From Ruminococcaceae bacterium AM07-15 (GTDB taxonomy: Bacteria > Bacillota > Clostridia > Oscillospirales > Butyricicoccaceae), in assembly GCA_003477405.1 (NCBI GenBank), contig QUDE01000013.1, positions 1 to 64,000 of the forward strand: a DNA stretch of 64,000 bases, read 5' to 3'. Every line of letters begins with the position of its first letter. Positions within the stretch are counted from its first letter, which is position 1. The position numbers and the translations under genes were made by a program. Shown piece by piece: positions 22,163 through 61,153 of the stretch. Under the pieces are notes generated by a model that saw nothing but the letters and a program-made list of their open reading frames with translations, was not told the origin of the DNA and searched no databases.

Positions 22163-22199
22163 AATCCCCCGGCGCATCTTGCAGCGCCGGGGGATTTGC
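22163..22199 (+). terminator. Terminator of gapA (first copy)
   Basis: AATCCCCCGGCGC and GCGCCGGGGGATT form a 13-bp stem around an eight-base loop. The loop and right arm (ATCTTGCAGCGCC onward) recur at 22389-22410 beyond the repeat element. Confidence 0.85.
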
Positions 22200-22202
22200 A
22201 TT

Positions 22203-22388
22203 TCGAAAAAGCGGCTTAGCCGCTTTTTCGAGTTTTTGCAAGAGGCACGGCGCACGCCTTTGGCGCACACCGGTCTCTTGAGAGGTGCAAAAACCGACGC
22301 ACAGGTCGCCGCTTTTTGCGGATTGAAAAAGAAGGGCAAAAAAGCGCCTGATACTGTATTCTTCTGTGATCGGTTTTCTCTTTGCTAT
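22203..22388 (+). repeat. Triple-hairpin terminator-nested element, copy 1
   Basis: It begins TCGAAAAAGCGGC-TTA-GCCGCTTTTTCGA (hairpin 1). A second stem with TTGCAAGAGG and CTCTTGA follows, then a third (GCAAAAACCGACGCACAGG...CGCTTTTTGC). The last ~60 bases diverge from the other copies. It is flanked by a 22-base duplication of the gapA terminator. Confidence 0.8.
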
Positions 22389-22412
22389 ATCTTGCAGCGC
22401 CGGGGGATTTTT
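22389..22412 (+). terminator. Partial duplicate of the gapA terminator
   Basis: The loop and descending arm ATCTTGCAGCGCCGGGGG plus T-run repeat the sequence at 22176-22197. The ascending arm is absent. Confidence 0.6.
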
Positions 22413-22444
22413 GCCCTTTCGACGGGATTTTTCAAAAAAAGCGG

Positions 22445-22472
22445 TTGCAATTTTCCAAAGATACGCTATAAT
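22445..22472 (+). promoter_or_regulatory. Promoter of tRNA-Gly
   Basis: TTGCAA (22445-22450), a 16-base spacer and TATAAT (22467-22472), 14 bases before the tRNA. Confidence 0.7.
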
Positions 22473-22485
22473 AGAGTTACTCCAT

Positions 22486-22559
22486 GCGGGTATAGTTCAT
22501 TGGTAGAACGTCAGCTTCCCAAGCTGGATAGGAGGGTTCGATTCCCTTTACCCGCTCCA
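22486..22559 (+). tRNA. tRNA-Gly (anticodon CCC)
   Basis: A 74-base cloverleaf: acceptor GCGGGTA/TACCCGC, anticodon loop TTCCCAA, T-arm GGTTCGATTCC, encoded CCA end. Confidence 0.95.
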
Positions 22560-22566
22560 TAGCAAA

Positions 22567-22590
22567 GACAGCCACGGGCTGTCTTTTTTT
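22567..22590 (+). terminator. Terminator of tRNA-Gly
   Basis: GACAGCC-ACG-GGCTGTC is followed by seven T. Confidence 0.85.
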
Positions 22591-22614
22591 ATACTCTTCC
22601 GAGAGGTGAGAAAA

Positions 22615-23484
22615 ATGACAAAGGTGCTGTGCTTTGGCTCGCTGAACATTGATTATATCTATCAGGTACCCCATTTTGTAGGGGCGGGGGAGACCCTCAG
22701 CGCTCTGTCCCGGCAGCGGCTGGCCGGAGGCAAGGGGCTGAACCAGGCTGTGGCCCTGCGCCGGGCCGGGGCCGAGACTTACATGGCGGGAAGCGTGGGA
22801 GAGGACGGGGATTTTCTCCTGGACACCCTTCGCCAGGCCGGGGTGGATATTTCCCTGGTGCGGCAGATGGAGGGGAACACCGGCACCGCCGTCATTCAGC
22901 GGGACGGGGCGGGGGAAAACTGCATCCTGCTCCACGGCGGAGCCAACCGGTGTATCACAGAAGAACAGGTGCAGGAGACTTTGGAGCATTTTGCACCGGG
23001 GGACTGGCTGGTGCTGCAAAACGAGATCAGCTGTCTGCCCCTGCTGCTCAGCGAGGGAAGAAAGCGGGGAATGCAGGTGGTTTTCAACCCTTCGCCCATG
23101 GAACCGGATCTGCTGGGGCTGAATCTGGAAATGGTGCATTGCCTGCTGCTCAACCAGGTGGAAGGCCGTCAGCTGCTGGGAGGAGAAGAACGAGAGGAAG
23201 AGGCTTTGCGCCGTGGGCTGGAAGAGTGGTTCCAGGGGGATACCCTGGTGCTCACCCTGGGCAGCCGGGGCGCCTGGTGCCTGCATCAAGGGGAATGGGT
23301 GTTCCAGAAGGCCTTTTCCGTGCCGGTGGTGGATACCACTGGGGCCGGGGATGCTTTCACCGGCTTTTTCGTGGCCAGCCGCATGATGGGACAGAGTATT
23401 CCGGAGGCGCTGGAGAAGGCTGCCTGGGCTGCTGCCCAAACCATCCAGCACCCCGGCGGTGCGGCGGCCGCACTGCCAAACTGA
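22615..23484 (+). CDS. PfkB family carbohydrate kinase (ribokinase-like)
   Basis: The 289-residue protein has the PfkB N-terminal motif (CFGSLNIDYIY, then GGKGLNQAVALRRAGA) and the C-terminal signature VVDTTGAGDAFTGFFVA holding the catalytic Asp. NTGTAVIQRDGAGEN and LLLNQVEG are typical of ribokinases. It phosphorylates a small sugar or nucleoside with ATP. The sequence does not fix the substrate, and no sugar transporter is nearby. The start at 22615 follows GAGAGGT; the earlier in-frame GTG overlaps that site. Confidence 0.92.
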   Translation: MTKVLCFGSLNIDYIYQVPHFVGAGETLSALSRQRLAGGKGLNQAVALRRAGAETYMAGSVGEDGDFLLDTLRQAGVDISLVRQMEGNTGTAVIQRDGAGENCILLHGGANRCITEEQVQETLEHFAPGDWLVLQNEISCLPLLLSEGRKRGMQVVFNPSPMEPDLLGLNLEMVHCLLLNQVEGRQLLGGEEREEEALRRGLEEWFQGDTLVLTLGSRGAWCLHQGEWVFQKAFSVPVVDTTGAGDAFTGFFVASRMMGQSIPEALEKAAWAAAQTIQHPGGAAAALPN

Positions 23485-23520
23485 CCCTCCCCTGGGGTGG
23501 GAGAGTTAACAGCCTGGGCT

Positions 23521-24062
23521 TTGGTCGGGCCGGCGCAGAGGTTGCGCAGACAAGCTGACCCAGACCAGCAGCCCGACCGAATGACAGGCTCCTGTGCCGC
23601 CCGGGTTCGGGGAGGGCCAGTATGCCCCCAGTGGCACGCCGCTCTAGTTAAGGTAAAACCTTGTGCAGCAAATGCCGCCGCGCAGCGTGATATAGAGAAG
23701 TTTTCTCCACAAGACTTGGCGCTGCGTAGTATGGCAGCGGAGGCACTCCGCTAGATAGCCAGGATACACCCAGGCCAGCGGCCTGACCGAATGACAGGCT
23801 CCTGTGCCGCCTGGGTCCGGAGAGGGCCAGTATGCCTCCGATGGCACGCCACTCTAGTTAAGGTAAAACCTTGTGCAGCAAATGCCGCCGCACAGCGTGA
23901 AGCAAGGAAGTTTTCTCCACAAGACCTGGCGCTGCGTAGTATGGCAGCGGAGGCACTCCGCTAGATAGCCAGGATACACCCAGGCCAGCGGCCTGACCGA
24001 ATGACAGGCTCCTGTGCCGCCTGGGTCCGGGGAGGGCCAGTATGCCCCCGGCGGCACGCCGG
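23521..24062. repeat. 210-bp tandem repeat, two full units and a partial third
   Basis: The landmark ATGACAGGCTCCTGTGCCGC occurs at 23581, 23791 and 24001, exactly 210 bases apart. Each unit holds a hairpin GTGCCGCC...GGCGGCAC enclosing GGGG/CCCC or GGAG/CTCC, and a second hairpin CAGCGGAG-GCA-CTCCGCTA. The first copy is preceded by GGTCGGGC paired with GCCCGACC. Short frames open through the repeat have no ribosome site. The remaining intergenic DNA (23485-23520, 24063-24148) shows nothing else. Confidence 0.85.
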
Positions 24063-24148
24063 TTGCAATGTGGGGAGAAACAGGATATAATAAAATATCA
24101 AACTGTGCCCAGGGAAAATTTTCCCGGGAAATTTGGAGTGGAAGTGTA

Positions 24149-25807
24149 ATGGATCATAATAAACTGGCGGAACTGCTGTTCCCCCACATCGACAAAACCA
24201 TGGAGGAATATCTCACAGAGATCTATCCTCCCCGGAACCTGCCCCAGGGGGCCATGGTCACCCGGTTTGCCCCCAGCCCCACCGGCTTTCTCCACATCGG
24301 CGGCCTGTTCACCGCCCTGGTCAATGAGCGGCTGGCCCACCAAAGCGGCGGCAGGATCATCCTTCGCATCGAGGACACCGACAAAAAGCGGGAAGTGGAG
24401 GACGGCATCACCGGCATCGTGGCCGGCCTGCGTGATTTCGGCGTGGAATTTGACGAGGGCATGATGAGCCAGACCGAGGAAAAGGGCGATTACGGCCCTT
24501 ACCAGCAAAGCCGCCGTGGCCCGATCTACCAGGCTTTCTGCAAGGAACTGGTGAAGCGCGGCCTGGCCTATCCCTGCTTCTGCACCGAAGAGGACCTGGC
24601 CGCCATCCGCAAGCAGCAGGAGGCGGAAAAGGCCCTGCCCGGCTATCATACCACCTACGCCCGCTGCCGTGACCTGACCATGGAGCAGGTGGAGGAGAAC
24701 ATCAAGGCGGGCAAGCCCTATGTGATGCGCCTGCGCTCTCCGGGTAAACCCGGTGGCCGGATCAAATACAAGGATGTGATCCGGGGCGAAATCGAGATGG
24801 ACGAAAACATCGCCGATATCGTGCTTCTCAAAACAGACGGCATCCCCACCTATCACTTTGCCCATGCCGTGGACGACACCCTGATGGGTACCACCCATGT
24901 GGTGCGCAGCGACGAATGGGTCTCTTCGGTGCCCACTCATCTCCAGCTCTTCTATGTGCTGGGACTTAAGCCGCCCAAGTATGCCCATGTCTCCCCTGTG
25001 ATGAAGGAGGAAGGCGGGGCCAAGCGGAAGCTGAGCAAGCGGAAAGACCCGGAAGCCGCCGTTTCTTATTTTGTGGACGAGGGCTATCCCAAGGAAGCCG
25101 TGCTGGAATACCTGCTCAACCTGGCCAACTCCCCCTTCGAGGACTGGAGACGGCAGAACAAGACCGCACCTTACCAGGACTATAAGCTCCAGCTGAACAA
25201 GATGAGCCAGTCGGGCGCTTTGTTCGACCTGGTGAAGCTGGCCGATGTGTCCGCCGGCGTCATCGGCGCCTTTGATGCAGAGAAGGTGACAAAGGATGTG
25301 CTGGAATGGGCAAAGGGCCACGACGAGGAGCTGTATGCCCTTCTCAATCGGGACACAGACTATGCCCAGGGCATCTTTGCCATCGACCGTGGCGGCAAAA
25401 AGCCCCGGAAGGACATCCGCAAGTGGAGCGATGTGCGGGATTATGTGAGCTATTTCTATGACGAGCTGTGGCAGGGAGAATACGACCTGCCGGAGAATCT
25501 GACCAAAGAAGATATGATCGCCATTCTGGACACCTATGCCAAGGCCTATGAGGAAGCTCCCGACAAGAACACCTGGTTTGACGGGGTCAAGGCCATCTGC
25601 GAGGGCCTGGGCTTCTGCCCGGAGGTCAAGGCGTACAAGCAGGACCCCACCGGCTGGAAAGGCCATGTGGGCGATGTGAGCAATGTGGTGCGGGTGGCCA
25701 TCACCGGCCGGAAAAACTCCCCCGACCTTTGGTCCATCATGACCCTTCTGGGCAAGGAGCGCAGCCTCTCCCGCCTGGAAAAAATGAAAGAATTTCTGGC
25801 AAAATAA
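24149..25807 (+). CDS. gltX: Glutamyl-tRNA synthetase
   Basis: Attaches glutamate to tRNA-Glu. The 552-residue class I enzyme has the ATP-binding motif FAPSPTGFLHIGGL near residue 45, the RIEDTD motif and the KMSKS-type loop KRKLSKRKDP near residue 295. The C-terminal anticodon-binding part is longer than in the ~480-residue family standard. The start at 24149 is chosen because GGAGTG lies upstream and homology begins nearby; a longer in-frame reading runs back into the tandem repeat. It heads a gltX-glnS-desulfurase-thiI run. Confidence 0.96.
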   Translation: MDHNKLAELLFPHIDKTMEEYLTEIYPPRNLPQGAMVTRFAPSPTGFLHIGGLFTALVNERLAHQSGGRIILRIEDTDKKREVEDGITGIVAGLRDFGVEFDEGMMSQTEEKGDYGPYQQSRRGPIYQAFCKELVKRGLAYPCFCTEEDLAAIRKQQEAEKALPGYHTTYARCRDLTMEQVEENIKAGKPYVMRLRSPGKPGGRIKYKDVIRGEIEMDENIADIVLLKTDGIPTYHFAHAVDDTLMGTTHVVRSDEWVSSVPTHLQLFYVLGLKPPKYAHVSPVMKEEGGAKRKLSKRKDPEAAVSYFVDEGYPKEAVLEYLLNLANSPFEDWRRQNKTAPYQDYKLQLNKMSQSGALFDLVKLADVSAGVIGAFDAEKVTKDVLEWAKGHDEELYALLNRDTDYAQGIFAIDRGGKKPRKDIRKWSDVRDYVSYFYDELWQGEYDLPENLTKEDMIAILDTYAKAYEEAPDKNTWFDGVKAICEGLGFCPEVKAYKQDPTGWKGHVGDVSNVVRVAITGRKNSPDLWSIMTLLGKERSLSRLEKMKEFLAK

Positions 25808-25906
25808 AACAAATCAAGTTTGAAACCCCCTGGGGGACGATCAAAAGAAGCCCAGGGGAGTCCATTTCAAAGGAGGGCTTTGGAACCCTCCGGAAAGGAA
25901 TAAAGT

Positions 25907-27576
<1,670 letters not shown>

Positions 27577-27577
<1 letters not shown>

Positions 27578-28707: not shown

Positions 28708-28725
28708 GCCTTCGGGAGAAATACC

Positions 28726-29904: not shown

Positions 29905-29948
29905 AAGAAAAAGTATACAGATCGGAATAAAAAAGGGAGGCCATTACT

Positions 29949-43198: not shown

Positions 43199-43720
43199 AT
43201 GAACGAAGTGATTCAAAATATCCTGAACCGGCGCAGCTGGCGCAGCTATGAGGAAAAGCAGATCAAGGAAGAAGAACTGGAGCAGATCATCCGCTGCGGC
43301 CTGTGGGCTCCCAGCGCCATGAACCAGCAGTCCTGGCATTTCACCGTGGTCCAGGACAAAGAGACCATCCAGCGCATCCGCAAGGGCTGCCAGGAGATGA
43401 TGGAGACCGACCGGGATATGTTCTACGGCGCTCCCACCCTGGTGATTGTCACCGGCAAACAGGACAACATCGCCCCTGTGGCCGACTGTTCTCTGGCCAT
43501 CCAGAATATGTTCCTTTCGGCAGCATCCCTGGGCATTGGCTCCTGCTGGATCAACTGCATCGGCCGCTACCTCACCACCCCTCAGGGCCAGGCCTTTGCC
43601 AAAGATGCCGGTATCCCGGAAGGCTATATCGGCGTGGCCGGCGTGATCCTGGGCTATCCCAAGGGAGAAGCACCCCAGGGCAAAGAGCGGGTAGAAGGCG
43701 CTGTGGACTACATCCGCTAG
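43199..43720 (+). CDS. Nitroreductase family FMN oxidoreductase
   Basis: The 173-residue protein has the nitroreductase signature: ILNRRSWRSYEEKQI (FMN phosphate-binding Arg/Ser), GLWAPSAMNQQSWHF, ADCSLAIQNMFLSAASLGIGSCWI and a GYPKGE C-terminus. It reduces quinones, nitroaromatics or an enzyme-specific substrate with NAD(P)H. Start 43199 has AAAGGA upstream at a longish distance. It is followed after five bases by hutD. Confidence 0.93.
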   Translation: MNEVIQNILNRRSWRSYEEKQIKEEELEQIIRCGLWAPSAMNQQSWHFTVVQDKETIQRIRKGCQEMMETDRDMFYGAPTLVIVTGKQDNIAPVADCSLAIQNMFLSAASLGIGSCWINCIGRYLTTPQGQAFAKDAGIPEGYIGVAGVILGYPKGEAPQGKERVEGAVDYIR

Positions 43721-43725
43721 AAGCT

Positions 43726-44289
43726 ATGGAAATGAGAAAATTGCCCCGTGAGGGGCACAAGGTCTCCACTTGGTCCGGCGGCTCCACCACCCAGGTGTAT
43801 ATTTTCCCGGAAGAAGCCGATTATGGCAAACGGGATTTCCTGTTTCGGGTGAGCAGCGCCGGGGTGGATTGTGACCGATCGGACTTTACGCCCCTTCCCG
43901 GGGTGGAGCGGCACATTATGGTGCTCAATGGCGCTCTGCGCCTCCTTTACGAAGGCCATGGAGAAAAAGACCTGGCGGTGCTGGAGCAGGACACCTTTTC
44001 CGGGGACTGGCACACCGTCAGCCTGGGTCAGGCCCAGGACTTTAACCTGATGCTCCGGGAGGGGACAAAAGGCTGCATTCAGGGCCTGCGGTTGAGAGCG
44101 GGCGAAAGCCATGCATTTTCCTTTTTTCCTGGGGAAAAGGGCGTGCTGCTGCTGTACCAGGGCAGCGGGGAGGCAAACCAGCTGTCTCTCAGTGAATGGG
44201 ACGGCTTACTCTGCCAAGGCCCGGGAGAGCTCAATGTAAAAGCACAGACAGACTGCATTCTGGCGCTGGCCCGGGTGCAACAGCAATAA
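43726..44289 (+). CDS. HutD/Ves family cupin-like protein
   Basis: The 187-residue protein matches HutD/Ves: WSGGSTTQVYIFPEEADY at the N-terminus, FRVSSAGVDCDRSDFTPLPG and ERHIMVLNGALRLLYEG. The family has a double cupin-like fold. HutD accompanies histidine utilisation in other bacteria, but no hut genes occur here. The molecular function is not established. The start may be 43726 or 43732. Confidence 0.85.
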   Translation: MEMRKLPREGHKVSTWSGGSTTQVYIFPEEADYGKRDFLFRVSSAGVDCDRSDFTPLPGVERHIMVLNGALRLLYEGHGEKDLAVLEQDTFSGDWHTVSLGQAQDFNLMLREGTKGCIQGLRLRAGESHAFSFFPGEKGVLLLYQGSGEANQLSLSEWDGLLCQGPGELNVKAQTDCILALARVQQQ

Positions 44290-44293
44290 AAAA

Positions 44294-44320
44294 AGACCGG
44301 AAGCTCAAGGCTTCCGGTCT
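44294..44320. terminator. Terminator hairpin, distal copy at the hutD/SBP boundary
   Basis: AGACCGGAAGC-TCAAG-GCTTCCGGTCT. An A-run precedes it, so it acts as a terminator on the minus strand. The near-identical stem recurs at 44505-44531. Confidence 0.75.
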
Positions 44321-44504
44321 CAGACTGTTGAAGAACTTATCTGGCTAGAGGGAACGGTTTGTCCTACCCTTTATCAATCCGCAAAAAGCCGCGACCTGTG
44401 CGTGGCTTTTTGCACCTATCAAGGGGCCAGTGTACGCCAAAGGCGTGCATGCAGTCCCTTGCAAAAACTCGAAAAAGTGGCTTGAGCCACTTTTTCGACA
44501 TGCT
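44321..44504 (-). repeat. Triple-hairpin terminator-nested element, copy 2
   Basis: On the minus strand: hairpin 1 TCGAAAAAGTGGC-TCAA-GCCACTTTTTCGA, a second stem with GCAAGGGACT and CCCCTTG, and a third GCAAAAAGCC...GGCTTTTTGC. The conserved tail AAGGGTAGGACAAAC to CAGTCTG ends it. It follows the 3' end of the peptide-binding lipoprotein gene and lies between two terminator copies. Confidence 0.82.
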
Positions 44505-44535
44505 AGACCGGAAGCCTTTGGCTTCCGGTCTTTTT
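44505..44535. terminator. Terminator hairpin, proximal copy after the SBP gene
   Basis: AGACCGGAAGCC-TTT-GGCTTCCGGTCT is followed by T-run on the plus strand. It serves both convergent genes. Confidence 0.8.
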
Positions 44536-44552: not shown

Positions 44553-46094
44553 CTATTTCCAATACATGGCGTGCATATACAGTGTGCCGCCGGGGTACAT
44601 GATGACGCCGCCCAGATTTTCGTTATAAGCCCGCATATGCATATCCTGGTACAGCGGGACCTGGGGACACAGATCGTTGATCAGGGCGATGCATTCGGAC
44701 AGAACTTCCGCGCGCTCATCCGGGTCGATGGTGGCAGCGGCCTTGTCGATCAGAGCATCCACTTCCGGACTGTTCAGTCTAGTTCTGTTGGAAGCGCCGA
44801 TGGATTTGGTGTGATAAACACCCACCAGATACTGAATCATATCAGTGGCCGAATAATTGCCGATGGCTGCGGTATAGTTACCCTCAGATGTTACCGTCAA
44901 ATAGGTGGCCAGGTCCATGCTTTCGATCTCGCACTCGATGCCCAGCACTTCCTTCAGGTTGGCCTGCACCACTTCGCCAGCTCTCTTCTTCTGATCGTTG
45001 GAGCAGATGATGGAGAATTTCACATCGGCAGGGTCCACACCGGAAGCGGCCATATATTCCTTGGCTTTTTCCGGATCGTAGGGCAGGGTGTTTTCATCGG
45101 TGGCGCCCGGCATATTGTCCGGTGCCATGGAGTAGGAAGGTGTGCCCAGGTTGTTCAGGGCCACCTGCACCACATCTTCCTTGTTGATGGCGCAGTTCAT
45201 GGCGCGGCGCACATCCACATTGTCCAGACCGGGAACTTCGTTGTTGACCATCATCCACATATGGTTGGTGGCGGCGATCTTGTCCAGCTTGATACCGTCG
45301 GCCGCTTCCAGCCGCTCCACATCCATGGCTTCCACATCCACGATGTAGTCGACCTCACCGGCTTCCAGAGCGATGGTCCGGGAAGAGCCTTCGGGGATGA
45401 TCTTCCAGATCATGTGCTTGATGGAGGGCATGTGCTCTTCATCCCAGTAATCTTCGAACATTTCAAATTCCAGGCTGTCGCCCCGCTTCCATTCCACATG
45501 CTTGTAGGGGCCGGTGCCGATGGGATCGGTAGAAAAGTTATGGCCCTCATCCAGCAACTTTTTGGGCATGATCGCATTGCCGTGGTGGGACAGATCGCTC
45601 AGCAATATGGCGGACGGTCCTGGTGTGGTGATTTTAACGGTATAATCATCTACTTTTTCAATTTTTTCAACAGACGCATTGTATAGATTGATTTCAGGGC
45701 AGGTCTTGGCATAGGTGATGGAAGTTACCACATCGTCGGCAGTCATTTCTTCACCGTTGTGGAACTTGACGCCTTTGCGCAGATGGAAGACCCATTCCGT
45801 TTCGCTGGTGTTTTCAAAGGATTCGGCTAAAGCTCCCTCCATCTCCATATCTTCATTCATCCGGGTCAACTGACTAAATGTTAAAGCATTCATATAACTG
45901 GATGCGATAGCATTTTGTTCTGTGGGCGATAGAGTCGGTGGTTCTGCCATAGTAGCGATGATAATGGTATCTTTTTTACCGCCTTTGCCGCCGGAGCCTT
46001 TTTCTCCGCCGTCCTTGCTGCATCCAAACAGGATACCCAGGGTCATTACTGCCACAAGCAGCAAACTGAGGACACGCCATTTTCTGTTTCTCAT
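44553..46094 (-). CDS. Family 5 ABC transporter substrate-binding lipoprotein (oligopeptide/dipeptide type)
   Basis: The 513-residue protein has a lipoprotein signal (LLLVAVMTLGILFGCS, lipobox Cys near residue 28), then the SBP family 5 core: PPTLSPTEQNAIASS, WVFHLRKGVKFHNGEEMTAD, DPIGTGPYKHVEWKRGD and RRAMNCAINKEDVV. It would bind peptides or a similar solute at the outer face. No permease or ATPase genes are beside it, so it must share a transporter encoded elsewhere. The start at 46094 has GAGGTG upstream. Confidence 0.93.
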   Translation of the reverse strand: MRNRKWRVLSLLLVAVMTLGILFGCSKDGGEKGSGGKGGKKDTIIIATMAEPPTLSPTEQNAIASSYMNALTFSQLTRMNEDMEMEGALAESFENTSETEWVFHLRKGVKFHNGEEMTADDVVTSITYAKTCPEINLYNASVEKIEKVDDYTVKITTPGPSAILLSDLSHHGNAIMPKKLLDEGHNFSTDPIGTGPYKHVEWKRGDSLEFEMFEDYWDEEHMPSIKHMIWKIIPEGSSRTIALEAGEVDYIVDVEAMDVERLEAADGIKLDKIAATNHMWMMVNNEVPGLDNVDVRRAMNCAINKEDVVQVALNNLGTPSYSMAPDNMPGATDENTLPYDPEKAKEYMAASGVDPADVKFSIICSNDQKKRAGEVVQANLKEVLGIECEIESMDLATYLTVTSEGNYTAAIGNYSATDMIQYLVGVYHTKSIGASNRTRLNSPEVDALIDKAAATIDPDERAEVLSECIALINDLCPQVPLYQDMHMRAYNENLGGVIMYPGGTLYMHAMYWK

Positions 46095-46402
46095 TCCGTA
46101 CACCTCATTTTCCGGTTCCCGGATCCGGCCCGATCCGGGGAAAGTATTTTCAGGGGCTTTCCCTGAATTGCTTTCAGTATAGCGCAGTTTATTTATTTTG
46201 CAATATATTTTTTAAAAATTATCCCTGATATCTATATAATTTGTACAAGTTTGTTGTTTTAAGTGTTTTTTATTGTAACAAATAACCAGAGGATTGCAGC
46301 GGAGTGCTTGCTTTACAGACAGAAAAAAACCGGCCGGATGGCCGGGGAAGATGGGGCGGAAAGAATAAAAAAACAGCCCGCTCTATTGAGCAGGCTGTTT
46401 TT
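46095..46402. other. AT-rich upstream region of the substrate-binding protein gene
   Basis: AT-rich DNA (46190-46262) probably holds the minus-strand promoter. A hairpin after the tRNA (AAACAGCCTGCT with its complement, 46368-46402) resembles its terminator. No gene is seen. Confidence 0.5.
46368..46402 (-). terminator. Terminator of tRNA-Arg
   Basis: On the minus strand AACAGCCTGCTC-AATA-GAGCGGGCTGTTTTTTT follows the CCA end. Confidence 0.75.
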
Positions 46403-46479: not shown

Positions 46480-46564
46480 ATGTTCCGCATTTGGAACGCT
46501 TAATTATAATACCATGCTCCCCTGAAAAAAGCAAGAGAAATTTTTGTTTTTTCGGAAAAAATTT

Positions 46565-46587
46565 GCGCCCCGGAAAACCCGGGGCGC
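46565..46587 (-). terminator. Terminator hairpin, distal copy before tRNA-Arg
   Basis: GCGCCCCGG-AAAA-C-CCGGGGCGC. The same hairpin recurs at 46788-46816 on the other side of repeat copy 3. Confidence 0.75.
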
Positions 46588-46787
46588 GCGGACAATAAAA
46601 AGGATGCAGGATCAAAAGGATCCATAGCCTGCTTTTCATCAATCCACAAAAAGCGGCGACCTGTGCGTCGCTTTTTGTACCGATCAAGGGGCCAGTGTGG
46701 CCCGTTGCCACTAAGGGTGGACAACGGGCTGCGCGCAGCCCATTGCAAAAATTCGAAAAAGCGGTCGATGCCGCTTTTTCGAGGGTC
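46588..46787 (-). repeat. Triple-hairpin terminator-nested element, copy 3 (variant middle stem)
   Basis: On the minus strand: hairpin 1 TCGAAAAAGCGGC-ATCG-ACCGCTTTTTCGA, and hairpin 3 ACAAAAAGCGACGCACAGG...CGCTTTTTGT. The middle stem is rebuilt, with GCCCGTTG paired to CAACGGGC in place of the usual GCACGCC-TTT-GGCG core. It lies 3' of the flotillin gene between two terminator copies. Confidence 0.8.
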
Positions 46788-46816
46788 TTTGCGCCCCGGA
46801 AAACCCGGAGCGCAAA
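46788..46816 (-). terminator. Terminator hairpin, proximal copy after the flotillin gene
   Basis: On the minus strand TTTGCGCTCCGG pairs with CCGGGGCGCAAA (one mismatch), 12 bases past the stop at 46829. Confidence 0.75.
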
Positions 46817-52535: not shown

Positions 52536-52538
52536 AGT

Positions 52539-52561
52539 AATTGCTTAATTACTTAATTATT
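52539..52561 (+). promoter_or_regulatory. Candidate ArsR operator downstream of the -10 box
   Basis: AATTGCTTAATTACTTAATT contains two TTAATTA-type half-sites at the transcription start. The last gene of the operon encodes an ArsR-family repressor, so autoregulation is likely. Confidence 0.5.
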
Positions 52562-52576
52562 GGCAGGAGGAAAGGT

Positions 52577-53669: not shown

Positions 53670-53729
53670 GCTTCCTCTTGCGGGCAAGAGGCAGATGGGG
53701 TATACTGGAAGAAAAAAGGAGGGGATGGG

Positions 53730-54179: not shown

Positions 54180-54188
54180 GAAAACAAA

Positions 54189-54213
54189 AAAGCCGCCCTT
54201 ATGGGGCGGCTTT
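54189..54213 (+). terminator. Terminator of trmO (first copy)
   Basis: AAAGCCGCCC-TTAT-GGGGCGGCTTT. It recurs at 54399-54426 beyond repeat copy 4. Confidence 0.85.
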
Positions 54214-54398
54214 GAGTGAGTCGAAAAAGTGGCAAAAGCCACTTTTTCGAGTTTTTGCAAGGGTCTTCATGCACGCCTTTGGCGCACACTTGCCCCTTGA
54301 GAGGTGCAAAAATCGACGCGCAGGTCGCCGTTTTTTGCAAATTGATTAAGGGTAGGGCAAACGGTTTCTTTTCGCTATCTAGGTTTTTCGGCAGTCTG
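54214..54398 (+). repeat. Triple-hairpin terminator-nested element, copy 4
   Basis: Hairpin 1 TCGAAAAAGTGGC-AAAA-GCCACTTTTTCGA at 54221-54250. A middle stem holds TTGCAAGGG and CCCCTTGA with the GCACGCCTTTGGCGCACAC core, followed by a third stem GCAAAAATCG...CGTTTTTTGC. The conserved tail AAGGGTAGGGCAAAC ends at CAGTCTG, directly against the second terminator copy. Confidence 0.85.
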
Positions 54399-54426
54399 AA
54401 AGCCGCCCTTTTGGGGCGGCTTTTTT
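54399..54426 (+). terminator. Duplicate trmO terminator
   Basis: AAAGCCGCCC-TTTT-GGGGCGGC is followed by six T, the stronger of the two copies. Confidence 0.88.
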
Positions 54427-54466
54427 CTCTGTTTTGCAAAATATAACGAAGATATAACTTTTAGTA

Positions 54467-55948
54467 TTATAAATGGAATTCCTGGCCTTCCAGAGCGCAA
54501 AGGCGCTGTAAGGTGAATTTGGCCATGGTCAGCGCGGCGGACAGGCCGCCGGGAGGCTGGAGCCATTGGCCGGTGAGCAGGCAGTTGTCCACTCCGGGCA
54601 CCGAGCCGGGGCTGTTTTGCAGCTTGCCGCCGGGGGCCAGGTAGAAGCCCATGGGGGAGCCTTTGTAGGCCCCGGTGACCCGGTGGAAGCTGGCAGGGGT
54701 AACGGCACTGAGCAGGCGGGCCTGGCTCAGAGAGGGCAGGGCCTGCTCCAGTTTTTCCTTGATCATCACGGCCACCCGGTGCTTTTCCACCCCGTAGGCC
54801 TCCTTGTTCTGGGACAGACGGAGCCAGGCGTCGCACTGGTGCTCGCTTTGGTTGATCTGGCAGGAAAGCAGGGTGAAACCGTTGGGAGCGCCGCCAGGGT
54901 GCCGCCGCAGCCACAGGGTATCGTATGTCTCTCCGGCCAGGGAGAAGGGGGGACAGGGCAGCAAAGCCGGGGCCTCCAGGGGCAGAGGGCTTTGGCCGGG
55001 AATGGCCAGATAGACGGTGAGAAAGCTGGAGACCGGGTATTTTTCCGGAGCGCTGTACCACCCTCCCAGCAGAGGGTCCAGATAGGAAGGCCCCAGCAGA
55101 CGGCTGCGCACCAGCCAGGGATCACAGGCGCAGATCACATAATCCCCCAAAGCGGTGCGTCCGCTGCGCAGCAGCAGCCCTCGGGCCCGGTTGCCGGAGA
55201 GCAGAATACGCTCTACCCCCTGACCGGTGAAGAGCTGGCCCCCATGGGTCTCCAGAGCGGCGGCCATCCGCTGGGCCAGCATGGCTCCCTGGGGCAGGTA
55301 CAGCCCGTGGGGATGGAGGGCTTGCCCCAGCCACAGAAGGGCAAAGGAAGCCGAAGCCCCCGGCGGGGGCGTTTTTTCCAGCAGGGCCTGGAGCAGAGGA
55401 TGGTGAAAGGAGCGGGCATATTCCCCGGCGCTTTGCCGGGCATAGGGCAAAAGCCGGCCACGGGCGGTAAGGTGGGCACCCAGGCGCACCTTTTCCCAGG
55501 CCATCATCATATCCAGGGGCTTTTCCTGGGGAAAGGACAGCTGGCAGGTGCGGCGCAGCAGGCGGCACAGCTCGCCGATTTCCGGGCCGTCCTGGGGCGA
55601 AAGGTGGAGCATAGCCTCTTCCAGATCCTCCGGACAGCGGAACAGGGGAAGCGCGGTCTGCCCCTGTCCCAGGGAAAAGGCCAGGACAGGCTGTGCTTCC
55701 CCTGGGCCCATTTCCTCCCCCAAAGCCCCTACGGCCTGCCACAGAGGGCGCATTTCGCCGCCGGGAGCGGCGCCGGACAGCCAGCGGGGCCCGGTGTCCA
55801 GGCGGAACCCACGCCGGGTCCACCCGGCGCACAGTCCGCCCGGTTGGGCGTTTTTTTCATAGACTTCCACCTGAAAGCCGTTTTTTGCGGCCAGTACCCC
55901 GGCGGCCAGGCCGGAAATGCCGCCGCCTACAATGAGCAGCTTTGCCAT
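54467..55948 (-). CDS. FAD-dependent oxidoreductase, phytoene desaturase/retinol saturase type
   Basis: The 493-residue protein has the FAD Rossmann motif LLIVGGGISGLAAGVLAAKNG, with EVYEKNAQPGG following as in CrtI-like amine oxidases. LDTGPRW and a C-terminal NCLLTGQWLQPPGGLSAAL glycine-rich FAD motif complete the fold. It would oxidise or saturate a lipid or isoprenoid-like substrate. No carotenoid genes are near, so the substrate is unknown. GGAGG precedes the ATG by seven bases. Confidence 0.87.
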   Translation of the reverse strand: MAKLLIVGGGISGLAAGVLAAKNGFQVEVYEKNAQPGGLCAGWTRRGFRLDTGPRWLSGAAPGGEMRPLWQAVGALGEEMGPGEAQPVLAFSLGQGQTALPLFRCPEDLEEAMLHLSPQDGPEIGELCRLLRRTCQLSFPQEKPLDMMMAWEKVRLGAHLTARGRLLPYARQSAGEYARSFHHPLLQALLEKTPPPGASASFALLWLGQALHPHGLYLPQGAMLAQRMAAALETHGGQLFTGQGVERILLSGNRARGLLLRSGRTALGDYVICACDPWLVRSRLLGPSYLDPLLGGWYSAPEKYPVSSFLTVYLAIPGQSPLPLEAPALLPCPPFSLAGETYDTLWLRRHPGGAPNGFTLLSCQINQSEHQCDAWLRLSQNKEAYGVEKHRVAVMIKEKLEQALPSLSQARLLSAVTPASFHRVTGAYKGSPMGFYLAPGGKLQNSPGSVPGVDNCLLTGQWLQPPGGLSAALTMAKFTLQRLCALEGQEFHL

Positions 55949-55981
55949 ATGGATTCCTCCTTTCTTCCAAAAATAGGCCGG

Positions 55982-56734
55982 TCACAGCCCTCGGTGATGC
56001 AGAACAAAGAAATAGACCAAAAGGGAAAAGGCCCCGAAAGCTAAAAGCACACAGGGGGCATAGAGAAAAAGAGGCAGCGCCCCCACGGCCGGATGGCACA
56101 GATAGGCCAGAAGGCAAAAAAGCAGCAGAGCCGTCCCGCTGCCAAGAATGCCCCAAAGTCCTTTTTTCTCCCGGGTGTTCTGGCCCCAGGAGGAGCTGGT
56201 TTTCCTTTGCAGCAGGCCAGCAAGCTCCTCCGCCCCTTCCAGACGGCGGGAGAGCAGATAGACCGGCCCATGGCCCTGCAAGCGCAGGAGAAAATAGGTG
56301 CGGTGGGGCACAATGGCCTCCACCCGGGTGATCTTCCGGGCCCCCAGAGGGATGGAGGGATTCTGAGCCAGGGAAGAAAGGATGCGCTGGGTCGTTCGTG
56401 CGCCCTGGAAAAAGCCCAGCACTTTGCCCGATGCAAACGCCCGGGCGTCAAAGACATACAACTCCCCCTGAAGGTCCTCAAAGAACAGAGTGCACTCCAT
56501 GGCGCTTTTCCGCCCCAGGTTCAGGGCAAGCACACCCATGAGAAGGGCGGTGCCCAGGCAGAGAAAAAGGGAAGGGAGGGCTTTATTTGTTCCCAGAGGC
56601 ATCAGCACCATGGCCCCGCCTACCGACAAAAGCAGCCCCAGAAGCAGGATTCCGCCTATGCTTCCCAGCAGGAAGCGGATGTAATGTCCCTTTTTCCCCA
56701 GATGGGGGCTGGCCCACATCCGCCGCTTTTCCAT
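55982..56734 (-). CDS. Uncharacterised membrane protein
   Basis: The ~250-residue protein has two N-terminal transmembrane segments (about 20-65), a cytosolic domain (about 70-180; LFFEDLQGELYVFDARAF, RVEAIVPHRTYFLLRL) and two C-terminal segments (about 195-245). I do not recognise the family. The start at 56734 is chosen for GGGGAG eight bases upstream; the frame stays open further. It lies between sigK and the FAD enzyme on the same strand. Confidence 0.65.
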   Translation of the reverse strand: MEKRRMWASPHLGKKGHYIRFLLGSIGGILLLGLLLSVGGAMVLMPLGTNKALPSLFLCLGTALLMGVLALNLGRKSAMECTLFFEDLQGELYVFDARAFASGKVLGFFQGARTTQRILSSLAQNPSIPLGARKITRVEAIVPHRTYFLLRLQGHGPVYLLSRRLEGAEELAGLLQRKTSSSWGQNTREKKGLWGILGSGTALLLFCLLAYLCHPAVGALPLFLYAPCVLLAFGAFSLLVYFFVLHHRGL

Positions 56735-56802
56735 TCCTGTTTCTCCCCTTTGGCCCGGTGTTTTTCTTATCATACCCGAAATGGGGCACAAAGGCAATGG
56801 GA

Positions 56803-57492
56803 TCAGTCCTCCAAAGCCCGGCGCAGCTTGAGCAGAGCCTTTTTTTCCAGGCGGGACACATAGGAGCGGGAAATGCCGCATTTTTCCGCCACCTCCCGCT
56901 GGGGCAAGGGCTGGGTGTCATACAGGCCGTAACGCATGACGATGATCTGCTTTTCCCGGCTTTCCAGCACCTGGTCCACCTTTTCCAGCAGCTGCTGCTG
57001 CCTCTCGTCCTGCTCCAGTTTTTCCATCATGTCCTCATCGCAGCGGATCACATCCACCAAAGAGAGCACATTGCCGTCCTTGTCGCTGTCGATGGGCTCG
57101 GAGAGGGACACTTCGCAGCTTTGCTTTTTCCGGGAGCGGAAATGCATCAGGATCTCGTTTTCGATGCACCGGGAAGCATAGGTGGCCAGGCGTGCTCCTT
57201 TGCTGGCATCAAAGGAGGAGATGGCTTTGATGAGCCCAAAGGTGCCGATGGAGATCAGATCGTCCTGTTCCTCCCGGGCCGCATAGTATTTTTTGATCAC
57301 ATGGGCCACAAGACGCAGATTGTGCTCGATCAGGGTGTTCCGGGCGCTCAGATCCCCCTGGGCCCATTTTTCCAGAGCTTCCCGCTCTTCGGCGGCGGTG
57401 AGGGGCCGGGGGAAGGAGCCGGCGGCGGGGGATACCCGCAGCATCAGATAAAGAGAATTGACAAACAAAAAGGCGGCGGCTGGCATGAGCAT
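56803..57492 (-). CDS. sigK: Sporulation sigma factor SigK (pro-sigma K type)
   Basis: The product matches SigK: a hydrophobic pro-like N-terminus (AAAFLFVNSLYLMLR), then FPRPLTAAEE, region 2 (SARNTLIEHNLRLVAHVIKK, ISIGTFGLIKAISSFD, LATYASRCIENEILMHFRS) and region 4 with REVAEKCGISRSYVSRLEKK. SigK drives late mother-cell genes in endospore formation. The gene is continuous here, not split by a skin element. The start is uncertain among nearby ATGs; 57492 has GGGAGG ten bases upstream. Confidence 0.92.
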   Translation of the reverse strand: MLMPAAAFLFVNSLYLMLRVSPAAGSFPRPLTAAEEREALEKWAQGDLSARNTLIEHNLRLVAHVIKKYYAAREEQDDLISIGTFGLIKAISSFDASKGARLATYASRCIENEILMHFRSRKKQSCEVSLSEPIDSDKDGNVLSLVDVIRCDEDMMEKLEQDERQQQLLEKVDQVLESREKQIIVMRYGLYDTQPLPQREVAEKCGISRSYVSRLEKKALLKLRRALED

Positions 57493-57598
57493 AGCAAACA
57501 TTCCTCCCAACAAGTTCCGTAGTAGCAGGATATTCCCCCAGGCCTTGTCTGTTGCAAGTCCGGGGAAAAACCTTCCATAAAGGAGGAAAGGGCGGCGG

Positions 57599-57627
57599 TT
57601 GACAAGGAAAAAAGAGCATGCTAACAT
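57599..57627 (+). promoter_or_regulatory. Promoter of the MATE leader
   Basis: TTGACA (57599-57604), a 17-base spacer and TAACAT (57622-57627), giving a start near 57635 and a leader of about 118 bases. Confidence 0.6.
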
Positions 57628-57634
57628 ATATTTA

Positions 57635-57752
57635 TACATCGGAGGGCAAGCCCCGAAGCAAAGGGACGGCCGGATAAGATGGCGGGAGAGTTCCCGTTTT
57701 CTTATCCGGCTTTTTTGATATCAGGAGCGCTTGCAGAAAAGGAGAAGAAAGA
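57635..57752 (+). promoter_or_regulatory. Candidate riboswitch or attenuator leader of the MATE gene
   Basis: The leader holds a G-rich segment (CGGAGGGCAAGCCCCGAAGC, AAAGGGACGG) followed by a complete intrinsic terminator before the start codon. No plus-strand gene precedes it, so a terminator here would act on the MATE message itself. I could not assign a known riboswitch class. Confidence 0.5.
57669..57716 (+). terminator. Leader terminator upstream of the MATE gene
   Basis: GCCGGATAAGA pairs with TCTTATCCGGC, with the inner stem CGGGA/TCCCG, and is followed by six T. Confidence 0.8.
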
Positions 57753-59088
57753 ATGAAAGAACACAGCCTGACCAAAGGGAGCATTTTCCGCTCCCTGCTC
57801 ACCTTTGCCGTAGGTCTTTTTGGCCCTGTTTCTCCAGGCCATGTACGGCGCCGCCGATCTGATCATTGTGGGTCAGTTCGCCGGCACCGGGGATCAGTCC
57901 GGCGTGGCCTCAGGGAGTCAGCTGTTCAACACCGCCACCATGTTGGTGGTGGGACTGACCATGGGCGTGACGGTGTTTGTGGCCCGGTGCATGGGGGCCG
58001 GGGAAAAGGAGAAGGCCGCCCGGGGTGTGGGCACCAGCATTGTGCTCTTTGCTCTGGTGGCCATTGTGGGCACCGCGATCATGGTGCCCGGCAGCGAAGT
58101 GCTCACCCGCCTGGTCCATGCACCCCAGGAGGCCTTCGGCCCCACCCAGGATTATATCCGGGTGTGCGGCATCGGCATGGTGTTCATCGTTTTCTATAAT
58201 GTATTGGGAGCCATTTTCCGGGGACTGGGGGATTCCAGAACGCCGCTGTTCACCGTGGCAGTGGCCTGCCTGTTCAACATTGCGGGAGACCTGTTCCTGG
58301 TGGCCGGGCTGGGGATGGGGGCCAAGGGCGCCGCCATCGCCACCGTATCGGCCCAGGCCCTCAGCGTGCTCATTTCTCTTGCGGTCATCTGGAAGCGGGG
58401 CCTGCCTTTTGCCTTTTCCCTTTCCCATGTGCGCTTTTTCAAAGACTGCCTTGTGCCCATTCTGAAAGTGGGTGTTCCCATCGCTTTGCAGGATGTGCTG
58501 GTGCATTTTTCCTTCCTCTTCATCCAGATCGTGGTCAACGGCATGGGCGTGGTGGAATCGGCGGCGGTGGGCGTGGCCGAAAAGGTCTGCGTCTTTCTCA
58601 TGCTCACCGCCTCGGCCTTCATGCAGTCCATCTCCGCCTTTGTGGCCCAGAACAACGGGGCAGGATTGCAGGATCGCAGCCGCAAGGCCCTTTCCTACGG
58701 CATCCGCATGGCCCTTTTCTCCGGAGCTGTGATGGGGGCCTTGGCTCTGTTTTTCGGCGACGGGCTGGCCAACCTGTTTTCCCGGGAGACAGGGGTCATA
58801 TTGGCCGCCCATTCCTACCTGAAAGCCTACGCCATCGACTGCCTGCTCACCGCCATCCTCTTCTGCTTTGTGGGCTTTTTCAACGGCTGCGGCAAAACGG
58901 TGTTCGTCATGCTCCAGGGTGTCATCGGCGCGTTCTGTGTCCGTATCCCGGTGGTTTATCTCATGAGTGCCCTCCCCGGGGCCACTCTGTTCCATGTGGG
59001 ACTGGGAACCCCCGCCTCTTCCCTGGTGCAGATCGCCCTGTGCCTGCTCTATTACCGGCATCTGGGGAAAAAAGGCCGGCTGTTCTGA
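57753..59088 (+). pseudogene. MATE-family efflux transporter with N-terminal frameshift
   Basis: The true start is ATG 57753 behind AAAGGAG, giving MKEHSLTKGSIFRSLLTFA, a typical MATE beginning. After about 20 codons the frame is lost near 57810, and the rest of the protein (from LALFLQAMYGAADLIIVGQF at 57820 to 59088) reads in another frame with all remaining transmembrane segments intact. Two bases missing or one extra near GCCGTAGGTC would explain it. Members export drugs or metabolites with Na+ or H+. The gene may be inactive, read from an internal TTG, or affected by a sequence error. Confidence 0.85.
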
Positions 59089-59527
59089 GTTTTTCCGGGC
59101 CTTTTCCCATGGCTCCCGCTGGGAAGGCTCCGCCTCATGCCATCAGTATACTCCCTCCCAGGCGTGTTTTTCGTCCTGGGAGATTTTTTTGCCTGCCTGA
59201 AAAAGAAGAAAGAAAAGGAATGGACAGGGGGTGGGTGCAAAGCCCCTTTTCCGCCTTCTCCTTTTTCTTTTTCTTCACCCTCACCCTCTCTTTTTTCTTC
59301 GTCTTTGTTTTTGTTTTTGTCTTCGTTTTTGTTTTTGCCTTTGCCTTTTCCTTTTCTTTGGCTTTTTTCGGTTTTAAAAAAACCCACTCGCTTTTTTCGG
59401 TTTCGGAAAAAAACATTTGCTTTTTCTTTGCGTCCAAGAAGTTTTGCAGAAAAAATCCCACAGAGGGCCTCTTTCGTGATACAATGTGGACAGAAAAGGC
59501 CCCGGCCTAGGGAAAGGAGTTTTTCAG
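59089..59527. other. Non-coding region with a long pyrimidine tract
   Basis: Nothing gene-like is found here. The main feature is the C/T-rich low-complexity stretch described separately. An open frame across it is an artefact of the repeat. Confidence 0.55.
59245..59376 (+). repeat. Polypyrimidine low-complexity tract
   Basis: About 130 bases almost free of A, with irregular TTTTTG, TTTTTC and TCTTCG units (for example GTTTTTGTTTTTGTCTTCG). Confidence 0.8.
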
Positions 59528-60922
59528 TTGAACAAAGGCACCATGGAGGGCATCCGCCCTCTGGAACAGTGGATCGAAAAGATGATGGCCCATTATGAGG
59601 CTGCCGGTTTGGCAGTGGCGGTCGTCGACAAAAATGTGACCTTGTATCAGAAATTTTTTGGCTTCCGGGATGCGGAAAATCAGACGCCCATTGACGAAAA
59701 TACCATTTTTGGTCTGGCGTCGGTGTCCAAGTCCTTTACGGCCCTGAGCATTATGCAGCTGGCCGAAAAGGGGGTCATCGACCTTGGGGGGCCGGTGAGC
59801 CGGTATCTGCCGGAGTTCCAGAACGCCCACGCCGCCCAGCCGGTGACGGTGGCCCATCTGCTCAGCCACGCCGGGGGATTTCTTCCCAAGCGGCGGATGC
59901 TGGTGGAAGAGGTGGCCCGGTCAATGGGCATCTGGCAGGACGGCAAAGCCGAGATCGGCCCCCATCCGGGTCTGGCCATGGAGGGCTGCCGCCGGGTGTG
60001 CAAGGGATTGGACGAAGAAGAAGCCCGCACCGGTCTGCCCGGGGAATATATGAGCTACAGCAACGACAGCTACGGCCTGCTGTCTGAGATCATCCGCCGC
60101 TATGGCGGGGAAAATTCCTTCCAGGACTATCTGGAAAAGAATGTGTTCGCCCCTCTGGGGATGGATCGGGCCACCGGCCTGTTTATCGCCCCGGCTCAGG
60201 ACCCCAACAGCACAAAGCTCTATTTCCACAAAGACGGCAAGCGTCAGTGGTGCCGGGATTACTATGACAACGCCTTTGTGCTCATGGGCGGCGGCGCTGT
60301 CAAGGCCAGCCTGGGCAGCATGAAGAAATATGTGCAGATGTACCTCAACGAGGGCAAGGGCGAGCATGGCCGTCTGCTCAGCCCCTACGGCATCCGGGAG
60401 ATGATGAAGCCCCGGCAGCATTACCGCTATGGCCAGTGGTATGGCTATGGCGTGGCCATGAGCGAGCTGGAAGGGGTGCGCATGGTGGGCCACGGCGGCA
60501 GCATGACCGGTATCTCCAGTCATTTTGCCTGGTCTCCTGAGCTGGAAGCTGGCGTCGTGGTGCTGTGCAACACCAGCGGCGTGCCGGTCAGCCGTGTGGC
60601 CGAGGAGGCCCTGCGCTGGGTCACCGGGGCCGCTGTGCCCGCGCCCATGAAAAACTGGCAGGACGCCGGATGGAGCGAAGAGGAAAAGAAGAGCTGCCTG
60701 GGTAAGTTTGCCTGCGCCGAGGGCAACGAGGTCACCTTCACCTGGGAAAACGGGGATCTCCATCTGACCATGGGCGGCAAGGAACGGGAGTTCATCATGG
60801 CCGGGCACGATCTGATCATCCTGCCTGGGGAATTCTCCCAAAGCGATATCCTGCTCCTGCGGGAAGAGGGCAGAGGAGTCTGGGGTGTGCGCACCGGCGG
60901 ACGCATCCTGACAAGACAGTAA
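59528..60922 (+). CDS. Serine beta-lactamase-like hydrolase (class C/D-alanine carboxypeptidase fold)
   Basis: The 464-residue protein has the penicillin-recognising triad: Ser65-x-x-Lys68 in GLASVSKSF, Tyr177-Ser-Asn179 in YSNDSYG, and the KTG-equivalent HGG in VGHGGSMTG. A C-terminal lipocalin-like domain follows (about 380-464). No signal peptide is present, so it probably acts in the cytosol on an ester or peptide rather than on beta-lactams. A TTG start at 59528 has AAAGGAG eight bases upstream and is preferred over the nearby ATG. Confidence 0.88.
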   Translation: MNKGTMEGIRPLEQWIEKMMAHYEAAGLAVAVVDKNVTLYQKFFGFRDAENQTPIDENTIFGLASVSKSFTALSIMQLAEKGVIDLGGPVSRYLPEFQNAHAAQPVTVAHLLSHAGGFLPKRRMLVEEVARSMGIWQDGKAEIGPHPGLAMEGCRRVCKGLDEEEARTGLPGEYMSYSNDSYGLLSEIIRRYGGENSFQDYLEKNVFAPLGMDRATGLFIAPAQDPNSTKLYFHKDGKRQWCRDYYDNAFVLMGGGAVKASLGSMKKYVQMYLNEGKGEHGRLLSPYGIREMMKPRQHYRYGQWYGYGVAMSELEGVRMVGHGGSMTGISSHFAWSPELEAGVVVLCNTSGVPVSRVAEEALRWVTGAAVPAPMKNWQDAGWSEEEKKSCLGKFACAEGNEVTFTWENGDLHLTMGGKEREFIMAGHDLIILPGEFSQSDILLLREEGRGVWGVRTGGRILTRQ

Positions 60923-60937
60923 AATCCCGCCTTGTCT
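60910..60937 (+). terminator. Terminator of the serine hydrolase gene (first copy, overlaps stop codon)
   Basis: GACAAG and CTTGTC pair around AGTAAAATCCCGC. The stop codon lies within the loop side. The sequence recurs at 61123-61150. Confidence 0.7.
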
Positions 60938-61122
60938 CAGCGTCTCGAAAAAGTGGCGAAAGCCGCTTTTTCGAGTCTTTGCAAGGGGCTGCATGCACGC
61001 CTTCGGCGCACACTGGCCCCTTGATAGGTGCAAAAACCGACGCACCGGTCGCCGGTTTTTGCGGATGGATGAAGGGTAGGGCAAATCATCTCTTTTTGCA
61101 TGACAGGTTTCGGGCAGTTTGT
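60938..61122 (+). repeat. Triple-hairpin terminator-nested element, copy 5
   Basis: Hairpin 1 TCGAAAAAGTGGC-GAAA-GCCGCTTTTTCGA at 60945-60974. The middle stem is CAAGGGGC...GCCCCTTG. The third stem GCAAAAACCG...CGGTTTTTGC is fully paired. The tail AAGGGTAGGGCAAAT ends at CAGTTTG. Confidence 0.85.
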
Positions 61123-61153
61123 GACAAGGGAGTAAAATCCCGCCTTGTCTTTG
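61123..61153 (+). terminator. Duplicate serine-hydrolase terminator
   Basis: GACAAGG and CCTTGTC pair around the shared AGTAAAATCCCG and are followed by TTT. Confidence 0.7.

Follow-up and report, generated by a model that had tools for sequence, protein, structure and literature searches.

The target site duplications of mobile elements are usually short and almost constant in length, since a transpososome holds its two active sites a fixed distance apart. IS1272, which we take to belong to the IS1182 family, is associated like that family with a DUF772-type DDE transposase. The nearest published behaviour that we found to the one described below is that of IS1272 of Staphylococcus aureus, termed "inverted-repeat-replacing", for which three new insertions hit inverted repeats of 22–30 bp that differed in sequence and could form stem-loops, two of the three just downstream of genes (PMC5678879). 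Here we describe a repeat of ~185–200 bp that occurs in five copies, two on the − strand and three on the + strand, in a 64,000-nucleotide stretch of Ruminococcaceae bacterium AM07-15 (contig QUDE01000013.1, positions 1 to 64,000; hereafter the window), and that inserts into transcription terminators. Like IS1272, this element targets hairpin-forming inverted repeats; in the available account IS1272 takes the place of the hairpin without duplicating its target, whereas the present element duplicates the hairpin. Its unusual feature is a centred palindromic duplication of variable length.

Long target duplications of similar size are found in the IS1202 group, for which lengths of 5–6, 15–17 or 24–29 bp are given, and the described member of that group ends in TG...CA, unlike the present element; the available text of the same source contains no occurrence of palindrom-, hairpin or terminator (PMC10045372). 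As far as these sources go, the present family combines the target type of IS1272 with the duplication size of the IS1202 group and, by transposase search, fits neither. CRISPR repeats are palindromic in many systems, and group IIC introns target terminators and are not known to leave a target duplication. Recognition of DNA stem-loops is a trait that the element shares with group IIC introns (PMC10190682), and among Cas1 systems family 2 casposons make duplications whose length converges on 14 bp and whose sequence hints at a palindromic motif, CRISPR spacer integration duplicating a repeat of 23–55 bp (PMC4150552). The small repeats BOX, RUP, SPRITE and QMITE resemble the element in being short, multicopy and mostly intergenic, with structured transcripts and terminal inverted and direct repeats; SPRITE is itself terminator-like, and none of the four is described in the portion of the source available to us as inserting into terminators with duplication of the whole hairpin (PMC10969869). 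Across the open-licence papers in PMC, a scope that leaves ISfinder and most subscription journals outside, no description of an element flanked by duplicated terminators was found.

The five copies are intergenic (at 22.2, 44.3, 46.6, 54.2 and 60.9 kb of the window, copies 1–5), and a 21-nt core pattern fitting all of them has five matches in the window, against a chance mean of 0.00 in 100 shuffles. Two genomes allowed the sites to be compared, those of Intestinimonas butyriciproducens An565 (also labelled G001), a near relative of the window, and of a second, more distant member of the same genus (G002). The window is colinear with An565 contig C24 from ~10.1 to 64 kb at 90–97% identity, except for one 324-bp piece at 80%, and G002 aligns in pieces at ~66–87% identity. 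Copies 2, 3 and 4 are absent from An565, where a single terminator stands in their place, as shown on both sides for copies 3 and 4 and in part for copy 2. Copy 3 (46588..46787, − strand), a longer variant with ~19 additional bases in the middle of the element, lies between hairpins at 46562..46587 and 46788..46813 (both +), and its site in An565 has one terminator and no element, the left and right sides both aligning. The same holds for copy 4 (54214..54398, +), which has no counterpart in An565, where both sides again align; in the window it is flanked by a left target copy of 25 bp (54189..54213, +), whose centre lies on the hairpin axis, and a right target copy that retains the T-tract (54399..54423, +). 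At the site of copy 2 (44321..44504, −) An565 likewise has a single terminator without the element. Only the gene side can be aligned there, because An565 lacks the neighbouring solute-binding protein gene (44553–46103). The first hairpin of copy 2 (44294..44320, +) adjoins the end of a HutD-domain gene (43303–44289), and its second hairpin (44505..44531, +) matches the first better when inverted (score 26 in inverted orientation vs 17 direct). Copies 2 and 3, which have the same orientation, enclose the solute-binding protein gene (PF00496) together with a tRNA, and of these two An565 keeps the tRNA at this place without the gene.

Copies 1 and 5 are common to the window and An565. Copy 5 (60938..61121, +), ~60 bases longer in An565, is enclosed by target copies of 29 bp (60909..60937 and 61122..61150, both +). 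Copy 1 (22197..22388, +; limits approximate) has a decayed right end; on sequence, its left terminator hairpin (22163..22196, +) stands 3' of a GAPDH gene (21108–22151, by domain matches), and its right-hand repeat (22389..22409, +; repeat score 22) comprises the loop and 3' arm only, that is, half a hairpin. In G002 the element is missing from the sites of copies 1, 3 and 5 and from the gene side of the copy 2 site, and the sequence around copy 4 cannot be aligned. At 19.7 kb the window has one terminator and 37 bp of an element right end (19703..19739, −) where An565 carries a complete element with a terminator on each side, and the remnant is probably the deletion scar of a sixth insertion. 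Near ~59.2–59.4 kb (window 59182–59414; An565 L165 14045–14335) An565 carries an element that lacks a clear terminator copy on its right, and after the same terminator the window is largely unalignable to An565. Two terminators without an element, the arrangement that would have spoken against insertion, were not seen at any compared site. Insertion followed by decay would best explain, from the compared sequences, this pattern of presence and absence. The first-pass annotation had proposed insertion that recognises and copies a terminator hairpin, to be checked by looking for orthologous sites with one terminator and no element; the proposal is supported by the three single-terminator sites in An565, two of them alignable on both sides and that of copy 2 on its gene side, and by the sites in G002 that lack the element.

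The generality of the duplication was scored in 73 elements (68 from An565 and 5 from the window), of which two at stretch edges were dropped, leaving 71 (66 and 5). Against a null of 4970 mismatched flank pairs (99% level, 11.5; 99.9% level, 19.0; maximum, 26.5), direct flank repeats reached the 99% level in 49/71 copies, where ~0.7 would be expected, and the 99.9% level in 35/71; counting inverted repeats as well, 51/71 reached the 99% level. The window copies 1–5 scored 22, 17, 23.5, 22.5 and 24, all above the 99% level. The flanking terminators themselves differ in sequence between the five sites, in agreement with the earlier statement that they are unrelated to each other. The accompanying claim, that every element sits between two copies of the local terminator, holds for all five window copies, with the qualification that the right repeat of copy 1 is half a hairpin, and fails genome-wide, where 49/71 show the repeat. 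Flank hairpins match better inverted than direct in 7/71 copies. The terminator loop of copy 3 (46562–46813; An565 L166) is AAAA in the window and TTTT in An565, with arms nearly the same, which reads as an inversion of the hairpin, and hairpins seem to flip in this lineage. By crude calling of open reading frames, the 3' end of a neighbouring gene faces the element in 37/49 scorable copies (24/73 dropped at edges); the same crude calls place six element copies inside a long frame.

In the 26 copies that could be measured, what is duplicated is a palindrome whose centre coincides with the axis of the terminator hairpin or lies close to it, the two cuts being at equal or nearly equal distances from the axis and that distance varying by site. 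Element ends were recognisable in 60/73 elements (nine had no right end, two no left end and two lay at an edge), and with lengths from 18 to 35 bp tried between fixed ends, 26/60 gave a good duplication, including window copies 4 and 5. In these 26 exact-end copies the duplicated unit spans 22–34 bp (mean, 26.0; sd, 2.9). When the axis was searched freely, the centre of the duplication fell exactly on the hairpin axis in 19/26 copies, within 0.5 bp in 24/26 and within 1.5 bp in 26/26; control blocks shifted by −6 to +6 bp would be exactly centred in 5.6%. A first hairpin script had given an offset of 18.5 for window copy 5, taken as a mis-call, and with another axis score all copies lay within 1.5 bp. 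The lengths of the left and right halves are correlated (r = 0.80, permutation p = 5e-5, n = 26), and remain so once the two longest copies are removed (24 copies of ≤31 bp; r = 0.61, p = 9e-4).

Two further measures come from an axis search restricted to 1.5 bp around the centre, which was not used as evidence of centring, and are descriptive: the duplicated arms extend ~10 bp beyond the loop (mean, 9.8; sd, 1.8; 24 copies of ≤31 bp), and the stem continues beyond the cut in 12/26. Regression of duplication length gives a slope of 0.11 against GC-stem length (95% interval, −0.07 to 0.26) and of 0.17 against full hairpin length (−0.03 to 0.44). A cut at the stem base was rejected as a simple rule, the slope on stem length being near 0, and the cuts are at paired positions rather than simply at the base of the stem. 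The eight nucleotides on the outer side of each duplicate hold an A-tract at the left copy (A fraction, 0.56) and a T-tract at the right copy (T fraction, 0.56; n = 26). Among the copies with a good repeat, the repeat begins directly after CAGTCTG in 21/37 and stops directly before GAGCGTG in 20/37.

The consensus ends of the element are GAGCGTGTCGAAAAA on the left and TTTTTCGACAGTCTG on the right, and the left end compared with the reverse complement of the right (CAGACTGTCGAAAAA) is identical at 12/15 positions, an imperfect terminal inverted repeat of the kind expected of a miniature inverted-repeat transposable element (MITE). Of the 60 elements with recognisable ends, 10 were set aside as long or degenerate; the remaining 50 were aligned together with window copies 1 and 3, and this alignment of 52 contains three internal hairpins at columns 11–45, 53–114 and 120–154, in which 97.3% of 1766 cells are paired. 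These hairpins show compensatory changes: both sides change in 16/34 pairs (eight in the first hairpin, two in the second and six in the third), against a mean of 4.5 in shuffled alignments, none of 500 shuffles reaching 16. When the partners were slid by 1–3 columns, pairing fell to 40–56% and the pairs with changes on both sides to 2–7. Searches against Rfam returned only two tRNAs above the gathering threshold in the whole window and, in a lax search of the copy 4 region, 32 weak matches, all under the gathering score.

The element is concentrated in An565. A scan of one genome for each of 84,980 prokaryote species for exact matches to the core pattern returned 31 stretches, of which 29 belong to An565 (32 matches), one to Paenibacillus and one to Burkholderiales; the last two were rejected as copies, their surrounding sequence being unlike the element. 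The core pattern had no match in viral contigs, phage records or plasmid records, and four left-end matches in other genomes of the family all fall in a single conserved sequence that appears to be coding, with no element after them. With copy 4 as query (40/95 first-look candidates scored), blastn of An565 listed at least 54 matches, 14 of them to the palindromic hairpin only. An element profile, built in part from the same An565 DNA on which it was run, gave 68 matches of ≥60 bits, including a few partial ones, in the 1.89 Mb that could be read (genome, ~2.6 Mb), which extrapolates to about 94 elements per genome. In G002 blastn gave a single match, to the first hairpin only, located in an element, single-copy there by blastn, whose ends (CAGCGTGTCGAAAAAGTGGC...TTTCGGCAGTCTG) are similar, whose interior differs and whose flanking hairpins match each other in part. 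Identity among the 52 aligned elements averages 76% and reaches 94% in the closest pair, so the assembled copies do not represent a recent burst; any that are nearly identical could have been collapsed into the tiny contigs of An565 that read N, as did 35/35 of those fetched. The family thus described is short (~185–205 bp), multicopy (68 matches) and non-coding, the last judged by length alone, and it has the target duplication (49/71 copies) and empty sites (copies 2, 3 and 4 in An565) of a MITE. A separate family of short hairpin repeats, CCCCCCTTTGCACAAGGGGGG, is present in An565 (L192, L163, L202 and L099) and is not part of the element.

The enzyme that would move the element was sought through its ends, its targets and known transposase families. 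A search for the ends (1.58 Mb of An565, 0.4 Mb of G002 and the window) placed 22/22 left-end matches inside known copies and 9/40 right-end matches outside them; one of the nine is the G002 element, and the adjacent sequence shown for the others bears no sign of an element. No autonomous relative was found in the 1.58 Mb of An565. A search for pairs of matching hairpins (fetched An565 and G002 sequence and the window) gave 102 pairs, 33 of which span known elements, and among the other pairs listed (<4 kb apart) none was seen with element-like ends.

Of the enzymes considered, the DUF772 transposase (PF05598) expected of the IS1182/IS1272 group has no match in either An565 or G002, some contigs of An565 being unreadable, and DDE_Tnp_1 (PF01609) has none in these two genomes. 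ISNCY_2 (NF033594), presumably the model nearest to the IS1202 group, is without a match in the same pair and has 0/87 matches over the cut-off in genomes of the family, 13/87 falling below the cut-off at E ≤ 0.001. Proteins with an rve domain, of which An565 has two and G002 one, lie near only distant matches to the element ends (up to 4 mismatches in 15) and near no close copy of them, and those of An565 look like IS3-type open frames on a reading of their translations. The Y1/IS200 transposase genes, candidates under the earlier suggestion of a RAYT, are present, sit in what reads as an IS200-type element unlike the present one, and in An565 lie in two stretches with neither a match to the element profile nor an end-like match, so the RAYT suggestion was set aside. 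These Y1 genes occupy contig edges (the end of L102 and the start of L116 in An565, the end of L254 in G002), in 3/3 cases shortly downstream of terminator-like hairpins. An565 and G002 have one Cas1 match each, both beside a CRISPR array, where a casposon would carry Cas1 away from such a locus and within inverted repeats; the present element, at ~185 bp, has its own ends, and a casposon was rejected as the driver. Reverse transcriptase (RVT_1, PF00078), which group IIC introns need, was found in 0/2 genomes.

Elsewhere in the window, positions 1–10144 have no alignment of >300 bp to the stretches of An565 that were fetched, possibly a rearrangement or a strain-specific region. Near-identical terminator hairpins without visible element-like ends occur ~2 kb apart at 10143–10177 and 12134–12166 and enclose two frames on the − strand, one of 405 aa without a Pfam match and one of 186 aa that is sigma-70-like. 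A 210-bp tandem repeat, with two full copies and one partial copy (84 nt), occupies 23558–24061, upstream of a gene that may encode a glutamyl-tRNA synthetase; in An565 ~300 bp correspond to ~556 bp of the window here.

Taken together we regard it as probable that the element belongs to a MITE-like, non-autonomous family with centred duplication of the terminator hairpin, moved in trans by a putative integrase or transposase. Such an enzyme would bind the terminator as a hairpin, either as a cruciform or single-stranded during transcription or replication, and the two element ends would be joined to paired positions of the stem, on opposite strands and ~10 bp from the loop, after which gap repair would copy the whole hairpin to both sides. 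Because the left copy would retain the A-tract and the right copy the T-tract, transcription in the forward direction would pass through the element and end at the right-hand copy. The suggestion in the first-pass annotation that termination is preserved on both sides is at best half true in this scheme, each copy presumably keeping its poly-T side for one direction only, given where the two tracts lie. Because the cuts are at paired positions, an enzyme holding a hairpin is favoured over a fixed stagger on duplex DNA, with a flexible symmetric complex on a palindromic duplex as a possible alternative. More tentatively, and short of what we would call likely, a candidate integrase outside the known insertion-sequence families may cleave the extruded terminator hairpin at two paired positions and so yield a whole, centred palindrome of variable length.

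The closest competitor, itself unlikely, is a DDE transposase with a fixed stagger of ~25 bp and a preference for palindromic DNA, to which the hairpin would be merely a symmetric duplex and which would itself set the length of the duplication. The clustering of lengths around their mean of 26.0 (sd, 2.9), the small slopes on stem length (only 0.11) and hairpin length (0.17) and the 24–29 bp duplications included in the IS1202 group (PMC10045372) are what it would lead one to expect. It accords less well with lengths that run from 22 to 34 bp while the centre stays on the axis, and with half-lengths that correlate at r = 0.80, as independent jitter of a fixed stagger would shift the centre; moreover, ISNCY_2 is unmatched in An565 and G002, and the TG...CA ends described for an IS1202-group element differ from the present ones (PMC10045372). 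It is improbable that the palindromic repeats are no target duplication and were instead formed later than the insertion, through hairpin-templated repair or replication slippage. Such an origin could accommodate the 7/71 copies whose flanks match better inverted and the inverted loop of copy 3, whereas the abutment of the repeat on CAGTCTG (21/37) and GAGCGTG (20/37) is as expected if the insertion step makes it.

We give very little credence to readings that dispense with a DNA transposition step altogether. RNA-mediated retro-copying, raised in the first-pass annotation, or a group IIC intron-like insertion at terminator stem-loops would draw on the conserved structure of the element and on the recognition of DNA stem-loops by group IIC introns (PMC10190682), and is countered by the lack of an RVT_1 match in An565 or G002, by the position of the element between two hairpin copies and not downstream of one, and by Rfam, which at its cut-off found no family in the window besides the two tRNAs and, in the lax search, none at copy 4. 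Equally implausible is an ancient structured 3'-untranslated module, or a spacer between natural back-to-back terminators, involving no insertion. The facing 3' ends in 37/49 scorable copies (by crude frame calls) and the conservation of the hairpins agree with this idea; the single-terminator empty sites refute it at copies 3 and 4, and it leaves aside that many copies have the same ends and different terminators and that repeats at the same site resemble each other far more than those of other sites in 49/71 copies.

Several observations weigh against the transposition of a MITE-like family with hairpin duplication. No transposase with matching ends was found in the searches of An565 and G002. 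Direct repeats are not significant in the flanks of 22/71 copies, so that unduplicated terminators, which the first-pass annotation had named as evidence to the contrary, do occur in part; in these 22 copies a left hairpin was found in 19 and a right hairpin in nine under a permissive energy threshold, one that was passed by 38% of 136 control stretches as well, and one terminator copy may possibly have been lost after insertion. The copies in which symmetry was measured are a selected set (26 of the 60 with ends, out of 73), with lengths searched over 18–35 bp only. The shuffles of the structure alignment take no account of relatedness, which the slid controls do. For copies 1 and 5 the near relative An565 offers no empty site, and the single terminators of An565 could in principle be precise losses through recombination between the repeats, a course argued against at copy 3 because G002 lacks the element there.

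The preferred reading, movement in trans of a non-autonomous element into terminator hairpins, would predict an autonomous element with ends GAGCGTGTCGAAAAA...CGACAGTCTG and an integrase gene. A duplication that tracks the symmetry axis of a hairpin at variable length is what structure-guided cutting would give, and if confirmed it predicts an enzyme that could be found by rule, through long elements flanked by duplicated, centred palindromes. It would also offer a natural system for studying the extrusion of hairpins at terminators in cells. For the host, terminators would be safe landing pads throughout the genome, defined by structure, and the element would become part of the 3' ends of host transcripts; for the family, it would be a case of a mobile element that avoids genes by reading hairpin structure.

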